From a virus: 45,040 nucleotides of DNA. A program made the translations under genes and the position numbers. The stretch spans positions 1-45,040 of the IMG/VR virus record IMGVR_UViG_3300017783_000052, one strand, 5' to 3'. Position 1 is the first letter of the stretch; every line of letters begins with the position of its first letter. Below, piece after piece: positions 7,177 through 8,775 of this stretch. Below the pieces are notes generated by a model that saw nothing but the letters and a program-made list of their open reading frames with translations, searched no databases and was not told the DNA's origin.

Positions 7177-7204
7177 GTGGCGCAACACTTAAACTAATTA
7201 GCTA

Positions 7205-7233
7205 TTTACTAAGTGGCATAATTATGCTATAAT
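7205..7233 (+). promoter_or_regulatory. Capsid gene promoter with shared GTGGC element
   Basis: TTTACT (7205-7210) and a perfect TATAAT (7228-7233) are separated by exactly 17 bases. The spacer begins AAGTGGCATAA and contains the perfect palindrome GCATAATTATGC (7216-7227). It reads into the capsid leader. The same AAGTGGC or AGGTGGC element recurs in other promoters of the window. A further copy, TAAGTGGC, lies at 7174-7181, at the scaffold stop codon. Confidence 0.8.
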
Positions 7234-7448
7234 TATTAGTAATGAAGCTTTTCGGAGTCGGGCCTCAGTAGACTACCCCTACACCGTTTTTAACCAGAAG
7301 AATGAAACAAACAGTCCACCAGTGTAGTGAGGCCCATGTGTACCGCAAATACATATGCACCCTTACAAAACGCACTGCCACTTAATGTGACCTTCTGAAA
7401 TAGTCTGTCAGCAATAGCTGACCTGCCATCTCAAAAGGAGTATTAACA
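7234..7448 (+). promoter_or_regulatory. Structured 5' leader of the capsid mRNA
   Basis: About 210 bases between the promoter and the capsid ATG hold no convincing gene. Base 7260-7267 (GGGCCTCA) pairs with 7328-7335, and 7279-7284 (CTACAC) pairs with 7322-7327, giving a long-range stem of 14 pairs with one bulge. A second hairpin, GTCAGC-AATA-GCTGAC, lies at 7407-7422, just before the ribosome site (AAAAGGAG, about 7433-7440). It could stabilise the capsid mRNA or regulate its translation; this is inferred from base pairing only. Confidence 0.6.
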
Positions 7449-8775
7449 ATGGCATTTCCAGTAGCAAGTGGTTACGGCAATTTACCTAACGGTAATTTTT
7501 CGCCAGTAATCTATTCTAAGAAAGTCCAAAAGGCTTTCCGTAACACCTCTGTTGTAGAGGATGTCACTAACACCGATTACGCAGGTGAAATTTCAAACAT
7601 GGGTGATAGCGTAAAAATCATCAAAGAACCAGAAATCACAATCAACTCATATACTCGTGGAACAGCACTTGCGACACAAGATTTGACTGACGCAGATTTC
7701 ACTATGGTAGTTACAGAAAGCAACTACTTCCAATTTGCTATTGACGATATTGAGGAAGCACACTCTTAACTTATGGGAGCTTTTAGGAGTAATCCTAATC
7801 GAATAACTAGGTGAATTGTCTGGGACACCCTAACGTAAAGACGAGGGCAATCAGCAGCCAAGCCGCACAGCGGAAGGTTCAACGACCATCTCGAAAGAGA
7901 GTAGGATCAAGTGATCCGAAGCGCCTAGCCCCTGAAAAATATCAGGGTGATGATATGGTCTTCTCTGTAAGGACAACTTGCAGCAGTTCATAAGAGAACG
8001 GACAAGTAATTAACGAGACTTGTTGAAAATACGGCATGTGAACTTCATCGATTTAGCAACTGACCGTGCAGGTTTTAAACTTCGTGATGCATTTGATCGT
8101 GAAGTGCTAGGCTATATGTCTGGTTGGAATTGGAATGGTTCTGCATGGGTTAGACGTACAGCATTAGACACAGGTGGATCTAAAGCTGACTCAAACGCAG
8201 GTAATGACGAATTGCTTGCAGCCAACAAATTAGACATCACTGACTTTGGTGGTTCTGATGTTGGTGGAGAGGCTGAAGTAACGTCTATTCCTCTAGCTGC
8301 AGGTGGTGGCGCAGGTGCTATCACTTCACCATTAGCTGTTATAGGCCGTATGGCTCGTTTAATGGATGCAGCAAACGTAGATACCGAAGGTAGATGGTGT
8401 ATTGTTGACCCCGTCTTTAAAGAGCTACTCCTTTCAGAAGATTCAAAATTAATGAACGCTGATTTTGGTGGCGAAGGTGAAATAAGAAACGGACGTATGC
8501 CAGGTACTATTCGTGGTATGCGAGTATACGTTTCAAATAACCTTCCATACGAGTCAACAGGCCCAGGAACTTCAGCTTCTGCAGGTTCTGAGGCTGCCTA
8601 CGGTGTTATGGTTGCAGGTCACGATGCAGCGGTAGCTGTAGCGGATCAAATTGCGAAAACTGAGAGCTTCCGTTCTCCAGACACATTCGCAGACATCGTC
8701 CGTGGTATGCAGCTTTATGGTCGTAAAATCTTACGTCCTGAAGCTCTTATGACAGCGAACTACAACTTAGCCTAA
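7449..8775 (+). CDS. Major capsid protein, gene split by a group I intron
   Basis: Exon 1 is 7449-7766 (106 codons, ending ...EEAHS) and exon 2 is 8035-8775 (246 codons plus stop, starting HVNFIDLATDRAGFKLRD). Joined in frame they give 352 residues, close to the length of T7-type capsid proteins. The N part (MAFPVASGYGNLPNG) and the DDIEEAHSHVNF junction look like a continuous coat protein of podovirus-like marine phages. The contig frame is broken by the intron, whose first codon is an in-frame TAA, so unspliced RNA would yield a 106-residue fragment. A strong ribosome site (AAAAGGAG) precedes the ATG. The gene has its own promoter, leader and terminator, fitting very high expression. Confidence 0.92.
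7767..8034 (+). ncRNA. Group I self-splicing intron (IA-like, no endonuclease ORF)
   Basis: Helices that can be traced: P1, exon CTCU 7763-7766 with GGAG 7776-7779, giving the required U-G pair at the 5' splice site; P10, exon CAUG 8035-8038 with 7772-7775; P2 7785-7796; P3 7807-7813 with 7922-7928; P7 7884-7888 (GACCA) with 7956-7960 (UGGUC); P8 7930-7934 with 7943-7947; P9 7961-7966 with 7993-7998. Two extra hairpins at 7889-7900 (GAAA loop) and 7904-7917 match the P7.1/P7.2 insertion of subgroup IA. A terminal hairpin is at 8002-8023. The conserved core strings AATCAGCAGCCAAGCC and GGTTCAACGACC are present. The intron ends in G8034. No homing endonuclease is encoded. Confidence 0.95.

Follow-up and report, generated by a model that had tools for sequence, protein, structure and literature searches.

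A family of ORF-less group I introns in the major capsid gene of HMO-2011-type marine podoviruses, with signs of movement between alleles

The interrupted capsid gene and the parts of its intron

The whole stretch of DNA analysed, called the window below, takes in the whole of an IMG/VR virus record, is 45,040 bases long and is classed as linear. Judged by its capsid gene and the adjacent genes, which are homologous to those of HMO-2011 and the CRP phages, the window phage is an HMO-2011-type marine podovirus. In protein sequence, exon 2 of the capsid gene shares 85.4% identity with the coat protein of Roseobacter phage CRP-738 and 52.0% with that of HMO-2011, and the order of the genes neighbouring the capsid gene is the same as in CRP-738 and CRP-235. 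Because the named isolates of the group span 52.7-56.2 kb, the window is probably several kb short of a complete genome.

The major capsid gene lies on the plus strand in two pieces. Exon 1 (7449-7766, residues 1-106) starts with the ATG at 7449 and reads to Ser106, which ends at 7766 and is followed by UAA (7767-7769), at a point where the gene of relatives is unbroken. The coat frame restarts at His107 (8035) in exon 2 (8035-8775, residues 107-352 and the stop codon ending at 8775), which matches the PHROG major head protein (1.3e-36). When 7766 is joined to 8035, Ser106 is followed by His107 and a coat protein of 352 amino acids results. A preliminary description had placed a 268-base intron at 7767-8034 between these two residues; its coordinates proved exact, and the 352-residue product was reproduced. 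Upstream of the gene is a gap of 272 nt (7177-7448), which measures 214-478 nt in most relatives and is possibly a promoter or leader.

The intervening 268 nt end in G8034 and are matched by the Rfam covariance model for group I introns (RF00028), a run of which had been suggested earlier as a check. The match, at 7757-7983, scores 72.4 bits (gathering score 50; E = 1.4e-16) and is the sole Rfam match at gathering level within the window. On the strength of this match and of the covariation described below, 7767-8034 is a group I intron in the major capsid gene, and it is ORF-less.

All of the elements that the preliminary description had traced (the U-G pair of P1, P10, P2, P3, P7, P8, P9 and two hairpins of IA type) could be placed, and all lie on the plus strand. 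The exon strand of P1, CUCU (7763-7766), has U7766 at the splice site and pairs with GGAG (7776-7779) of the internal guide (7773-7779). The guide begins with AUG (7773-7775), which pairs with CAU at the start of exon 2 (8035-8037) and so forms P10. The UAA at 7767-7769 is the first codon of the intron, and is expected to halt ribosomes before they reach the ribozyme core. There follow the P2 hairpin (7783-7798), the 5' strand of P3 (7807-7813), whose partner is 7922-7928, the P4-P5 region (7820-7854, with P4 at 7820-7823/7851-7854 and P5 at 7828-7831/7844-7847) and the P6a hairpin (7863-7873). The guanosine-binding helix P7 is formed by 7884-7888 and 7956-7960, and between its strands lie the IA-type hairpins P7.1 and P7.2 (7889-7917), the 3' strand of P3 and the P8 hairpin (7930-7947). 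The 3' part of the intron consists of the hairpins P9 (7965-7983), P9.1 (7986-7999) and P9.2 (8002-8023), the last two together occupying 7986-8023. The helices from P2 to P9.2 are placed by structure and covariation, and the exon strand of P10 by structure.

Two near-copies of the window intron were found, one in L007 (2 bases different in the alignment) and one in L145 (99.6% identical). Since these IMG/VR records are distinct and bear different dataset numbers, the window intron is not a one-off assembly error.

The intron family, its fold and its intron-free relatives

Among the 293 loci read, which partly overlap, 31 introns with 20 distinct sequences were found in 29 records including the window, and one further intron is severed by a contig end (L054). 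In the codon numbering of the window capsid, 17 introns (265-272 nt) lie after codon 106, 13 (247-258 nt) inside codon 55 and one (270 nt) after codon 20. Introns at codons 55 and 106 occur together in one capsid gene in L160 (on the same contig as L135) and in L152, and all introns of these two loci exceed the Rfam cut-off. All 27 records recovered from viral contigs with a 30-letter intron pattern have the intron in this capsid gene, the pattern having been derived from capsid introns and being therefore biased toward them; the same pattern had no match in genome contigs. RF00028 scores above its cut-off in each of these 27 records (29 introns), and in L225. Removal of the intron or introns leaves a single open frame over the junction or junctions in 29 of 29 loci. 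The spliced frames are full-length in 25 loci, short at the 5' end in two and run off the 3' end in two; the incomplete carrier loci are L007, L145, L154 and L242.

The structure was scored over the 20 distinct introns for P2, P3, P4, P5, P6a, P7, P7.1, P7.2, P8, P9, P9.1 and P9.2. Of 1222 cells, 98.4% are paired, and both sides have changed in 31 of 62 pairs. Doubly changed cells number 160 against a shuffled mean of 49.8, and none of 500 shuffles reaches the observed percentage paired, the number of doubly changed pairs or of doubly changed cells, or the covariation score. When partners are slid, at most 42.7% of the cells are paired, a comparison in which the true structure is favoured, as it was drawn on the window's intron. 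One measure, the number of further pair types, runs in the opposite direction (47 observed against 53.7 shuffled, with 499 of 500 shuffles as high); concerted changes would produce such a lower count. The pseudoknotted P3-P7 core is present, with P3 100% paired and doubly changed in 2 of 7 pairs, and P7 100% paired and doubly changed in 1 of 5. Subgroup IA2 is defined by the P7.1/P7.2 and P9.1/P9.2 extensions. All four of these helices are present and covary in the family, which may belong to this subgroup; the window intron has the look of an IA intron.

The splice signals follow the exons. In all 20 distinct introns P1 is paired, with a U.G at the 5' splice site, and the terminal base is G. 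The first three positions of P10 are paired in 17 of the 20, across three different sites, and the third P10 pair fails in L047, L160 and L152, at codon 106. The guide varies to fit the local exon, P1 being CUCU/GGAG at codon 106, CCGU/GCGG at codon 55 and GCGUU/GACGC at codon 20. An in-frame stop comes immediately in 18 introns and within 13 nt of the splice site in all 20; a review describes such stops as a likely device by which the intron is allowed to fold through a stalled ribosome (PMC3984707).

A course of splicing may be read from this structure. A ribosome on exon 1 would halt at the UAA that opens the intron, and the RNA core would then fold; P1 would set the bond after U7766, guanosine would attack it, P10 and G8034 would align exon 2, and ligation of the exons would restore the capsid mRNA. 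The capsid pieces might instead be translated apart, as in the split, non-spliced nrdA gene of phage Aeh1 (PMC7344957), or the insertion might be a dead remnant. Such a lack of splicing is very improbable, however, as it is opposed by the compensatory changes throughout the introns, by the way in which P1 and P10 track the exon at three sites and by the restoration of one open frame in every locus where the introns were removed.

In the 20 distinct introns (247-272 nt), the longest stop-free stretch in any frame is 65 codons, and no homing endonuclease ORF was found inside any of them, in agreement with the ORF-less character first noted for the window intron.

Intron-free alleles, a search for which had also been advised, exist among the closest relatives: in L004, L005 and L006 (98-99% protein identity; L006 is cut at residue 31) the capsid gene is unbroken at the codon-106 point. 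The exon proteins of the carrier L037 are 100% identical to those of the cultured, intron-free CRP-235, and its contig has 92.3% DNA identity to CRP-235 across 93% of its length. In all 12 named HMO-2011-type isolates the coat gene is uninterrupted. The idea that these phages generally carry group I introns was discarded, since RF00028 was found in none of 25 records; 12 of these are complete genomes of named isolates, and for the other 13, picked from intron-free capsid loci, the test covers their other genes only. In a set of 80 loci, obtained with a query that favours close relatives, 7 of 79 readable loci have an intron at site 106 and 5 of 78 have one at site 55. No overall carriage rate is given, as some of the later queries had been selected for bearing an intron. 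The conservation of the insertion sites is unremarkable, codons 106, 55 and 20 lying at the 65th, 81st and 65th percentile of the gene, respectively. The L008 contig opens with base 1 of exon 2 (residue 107), as if a mixture of alleles with and without the intron had broken the assembly at the intron's edge.

Traces of movement between alleles

Presence changes were counted on a quick capsid protein tree of 163 rows, from which 6 near-identical carriers and near-duplicate intron-free capsids had been dropped. At site 106, 13 changes are required for 16 carriers (200 shuffles: mean 15.5, minimum 13), and at site 55, 7 changes for 8 carriers (shuffles: mean 7.93, minimum 6). Carriage is widely scattered and is not random at site 106, where it is mildly clustered, because 13 changes is the lowest value among the 200 shuffles.

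In the intron tree, the site-106 introns form one group (82/83) and the site-55 introns another (97/95), including those of a contig that holds both; the inner branches of the site-106 group are mostly weak. The capsid proteins (58 rows) reject a clade of L042 and L242 (p = 0.0045), a pair starred in the intron tree. They also reject two sets chosen by intron similarity only, namely L001, L007, L145 and L154 (p = 0.0029) and L042, L242 and L046 (p = 5e-13). The introns of L042 and L242 are 98.5% identical and their capsid genes 74.4% identical. Part of the descent is vertical, because introns tend to be more alike where the capsids are more alike (r = 0.62, 105 pairs). The family presents an ORF-less intron that moves between alleles, which is one of the features of collaborative homing.

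The exon bases next to the introns tell of the same movement. CTCT stands directly before site 106 in 17 of 17 carriers as against 6 of 205 intron-free alleles, and CCGT before and C after the break at site 55 in 13 of 13 carriers as against 7 of 205; the carriers counted are partly near-copies, so that the events are not independent. The CTCT may reflect the pairing need of P1. The intron-free alleles that bear this footprint at codon 106 are L004, L020, L021, L084, L173 and L194, and L004 is identical to the window across 112 nt round the junction. These six may be sites of exact intron loss.

When carriers are compared with their nearest intron-free siblings, mismatch falls with distance from the junction, from 0.228 within 6 nt to 0.111 at 6-15 nt, 0.091 at 15-30 nt, 0.084 at 30-60 nt and 0.058 beyond 240 nt. 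Twenty carriers were compared after 9 near-identical ones had been dropped, and the sum uses the 15 with a sibling of more than 85% identity, the 5 below this value being excluded. The ratio of local to global mismatch exceeds that of pairs of intron-free alleles (p = 0.0016 with 10 pairs and p = 0.0011 with 5 pairs, L156 having been dropped from the pairs). This aggregate signal is modest, because among 1026 pseudo-junctions elsewhere in the gene 6.2% (site 106) and 3.6% (site 55) are equally dense.

The pair L042 and L039 is the clearest case. L042 differs from the intron-free L039 by 24 mismatches in 1056 nt, of which 20 fall between -64 and +48 round the intron and none changes an amino acid, and none of 50 control pairs of intron-free alleles has a like pattern. 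Within this span of 112 nt, L042 is 87.5% identical to L242 and 91.1% identical to the intron-free L038, and L039 is 76.8% identical to L242; outside it, L042 and L039 are both about 73% identical to L242. As the intron-free L038 is closer to L042 than L242 is, gain of the intron by L042 and its loss by L039 are both possible. Between L044 and L045, 84 of 86 mismatches lie before +208. Up to 45 nt from the junction, L037 is identical to L081, which carries the intron, and elsewhere its best matches are the intron-free L035 and CRP-235. The window differs from L005 in the codon of Ser106, which is TCT instead of AGT, and in a third change at -7. In 11 pairs with similar introns and distant capsids, no clear excess at third positions was found near the site, except downstream in L042/L242. 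On the evidence of these alignments, the footprints are marks of DNA-level gene conversion round the intron. Site-specific intron lineages would thus pass between related phages by homing-like DNA recombination, and the transfer would co-copy a short stretch of flanking exon, including the bases needed by P1. The earlier suggestion that the intron had been mobilised is supported in respect of movement between alleles, and is extended by the trees, the footprints and the L042/L039 tract. Another nuclease may move it, or it may have lost its own.

Movement at the RNA level, in which the intron would reverse-splice into capsid mRNA and the product would then be reverse-transcribed and recombined, would be expected to leave just such a trace as the re-matched P1 and P10 at three sites of one gene, which ectopic insertion of RNA would produce. 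Nevertheless it appears improbable, since within a site the introns travel with their exon flanks, as in DNA-level transfer, and the site groups are separate in the intron tree.

Candidate nucleases and comparison with known systems

No homing-type nuclease was found in the window by Pfam (E 0.001) among 56 distinct ORF proteins of the 103 listed, and PHROGs applied to 20 window proteins gave a RusA-like resolvase and a Cas4-type exonuclease, which are ordinary replication genes. Over the records, HNH_3 was found in 0 of 36 (the window excluded), GIY-YIG in 0 of 37, LAGLIDADG_3 in 0 of 38, HNH in 1 of 37, Endonuclease_7 in 3 of 37 and T5orf172 in 5 of 38. The Endonuclease_7 matches are all in records with an intron-free capsid gene. 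In carriers with readable flanks, no nuclease gene lies between the capsid gene and its neighbours, and no free-standing endonuclease gene was found adjoining the intron-bearing gene in these records, which are mostly fragments. In 24 of the 25 carriers whose upstream gap is readable, the longest ATG-initiated ORF there has 64 aa; the exception is L240, with 90 aa on the opposite strand. Three other genes near the capsid gene were considered as nucleases and rejected. Two of them lie on the minus strand between the upstream neighbour and the capsid gene in intron-free loci (L043, 1763-2365; L057, 1449-2030), where by eye one has ankyrin-like repeats and the other a start like that of a secreted protein. 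The third (L225, 166 aa), 3' of the capsid gene, is not nuclease-like by eye, and a small gene is found there in several isolates too.

The low domain counts and the lack of a nuclease gene beside the capsid gene are what would be expected if ordinary phage recombination during co-infection, with no site-specific nuclease, were alone at work and the scatter arose from gain and loss by allele exchange. Long near-identical stretches shared by L081, L120 and L037 also agree with this explanation, as does a tract in L042/L039 that may record either gain or loss. It is possible, though we doubt it: the intron-centred tract of 112 nt and the 13 changes for 16 carriers fit driven transfer better, and plain recombination offers no reason for the repeated rise of a neutral intron. 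A trans-acting nuclease is ranked above it in view of the position of the tract, with the intron at its centre, and of the repeated spread, from which we infer a driven process.

The T5orf172 domain, counted as a homing endonuclease class (PMC10448857), offers a candidate. Its five holders among the 38 records are the carriers G010, G013 and G015 and the intron-free G029 and CRP-235. In the carriers these GIY-YIG-type genes (in two of them L316, 648-1184, and L317, 1030-1560) lie about 9.1-10.3 kb upstream of the intron. Six carriers reach 9.9 kb or more upstream, and 3 of these hold such a gene; in CRP-235 the gene lies about 9.4 kb upstream of the coat gene, past the terminase genes. The upstream reach of the window, 7.4 kb, is short of this locus. 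The sole HNH match, in the carrier G015 (L159; L317, 1562-2029), is about 10 kb from the intron and directly follows the T5orf172 gene. Of 39 records whose capsid gene is intron-free, 7 have T5orf172 as well (2 of 9 and 5 of 30), CRP-235 included, and no link between it and the intron is therefore established; by its distribution it is a lead, not a demonstrated cause of intron carriage.

These genes bear on strict collaborative homing, in which a free-standing homing endonuclease of the same phage would cut the intron-free alleles at the insertion site. Precedents are the ORF-less psbA intron with F-CphI (PMC6083498) and cases in T3, T7-like phages and ICP1 (PMC10448857), and the T5orf172 genes upstream of the intron in half of the carriers that reach so far would suit it. 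It is rather unlikely for the capsid introns, given the absence of a nuclease gene beside the capsid gene, the shortness of the gap ORFs and the occurrence of T5orf172 in intron-free records.

The explanation that we consider highly probable from the sequences at hand is that of a capsid-gene group I intron that is spliced and moves by homing-like recombination, most likely with a nuclease acting in trans. Since no intron encodes a nuclease, the initiating DNA break would most likely be made by an endonuclease from outside it. A further step may be ventured only tentatively, namely that throughout the group the entry of ORF-less introns at three fixed capsid-gene positions is driven by such a trans-acting endonuclease, which may be the upstream T5orf172 protein or belong to a type that the domain models do not cover, and that the capsid gene is for this reason the only place where group I introns are found there.

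The system may be compared with several others. In the mycobacteriophage LittleE, as here, an intron that is most likely of group I lies in the major capsid gene, with U ending exon 1, G ending the intron and intron-free relatives; unlike the window intron, it measures 819 bp, has a LAGLIDADG-type ORF on the opposite strand, interrupts an HK97-fold capsid gene of a mycobacterial siphovirus, and its splicing was proven by RT-PCR and N-terminal sequencing (PMC3706429). The same paper cites a capsid intron in Tuc2009, and describes a 265-bp intron in the minor tail gene of BAKA and Optimus that is likewise ORF-less, of similar size and in a virion structural gene, but is in a tail gene of two genomes and has RT-PCR-proven splicing in BAKA (PMC3706429). 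The psbA intron of S-PM2 resembles the capsid intron in relying for its movement on a nuclease outside the intron, as we infer for the latter, but the F-CphI gene is adjacent and has a known cleavage site (PMC6083498), whereas the capsid intron is without an adjacent nuclease gene. The group I introns of Jug phages are also short, about 206 nt on average; these are huge gut phages, however, with about 18.5 introns per genome, many stand-alone nucleases, and terL and nrdD split (PMC12363816).

By sequence, the introns of Alteromonas phage AD45 (in thyX) and Escherichia phage nepoznato form one supported group with the capsid introns (98/95); unlike in the window, the pieces of thyX in AD45 have a homing endonuclease gene between them, and the nepoznato intron lies between two hypothetical genes. 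A similar intron occurs in the ribonucleotide reductase gene of Rhizobium phage RHph_N3_13, a distant capsid relative (L294, 2423-3181), where the ORF between the reductase pieces is annotated as an Srd-like sigma decoy. Pseudoalteromonas phage HP1 (L299, a record without annotation) has two group I intron matches, at 1337-1607 and 2111-2392.

The preliminary description had called a capsid intron without an endonuclease unusual. The intron and its ORF-less status stand, but its rarity is to be put less strongly, in view of LittleE and Tuc2009 and of how common short phage introns are. No report of capsid introns in HMO-2011-type phages was found in the open-licence literature of PubMed Central. 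The word "intron" does not occur in the main text of the HMO-2011-type genome paper, in which the capsid gene served as the bait gene (PMC9038755), and a second paper deals with DNA polymerase genes (PMC10580990). Capsid-gene introns and short phage introns being already known, what is added here is the evidence of movement, and the alleles preserve an unusually clear natural record of how introns moved at several sites within a single structural gene.

Siblings with and without the intron form a natural series in this family, one pairing being that of a carrier contig with the cultured CRP-235 (92% identical), and the series allows the movement of a nuclease-less intron to be followed nucleotide by nucleotide and put to laboratory test. 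There is a warning here as well, that marine capsid marker genes may be split by introns and cut short by gene callers.
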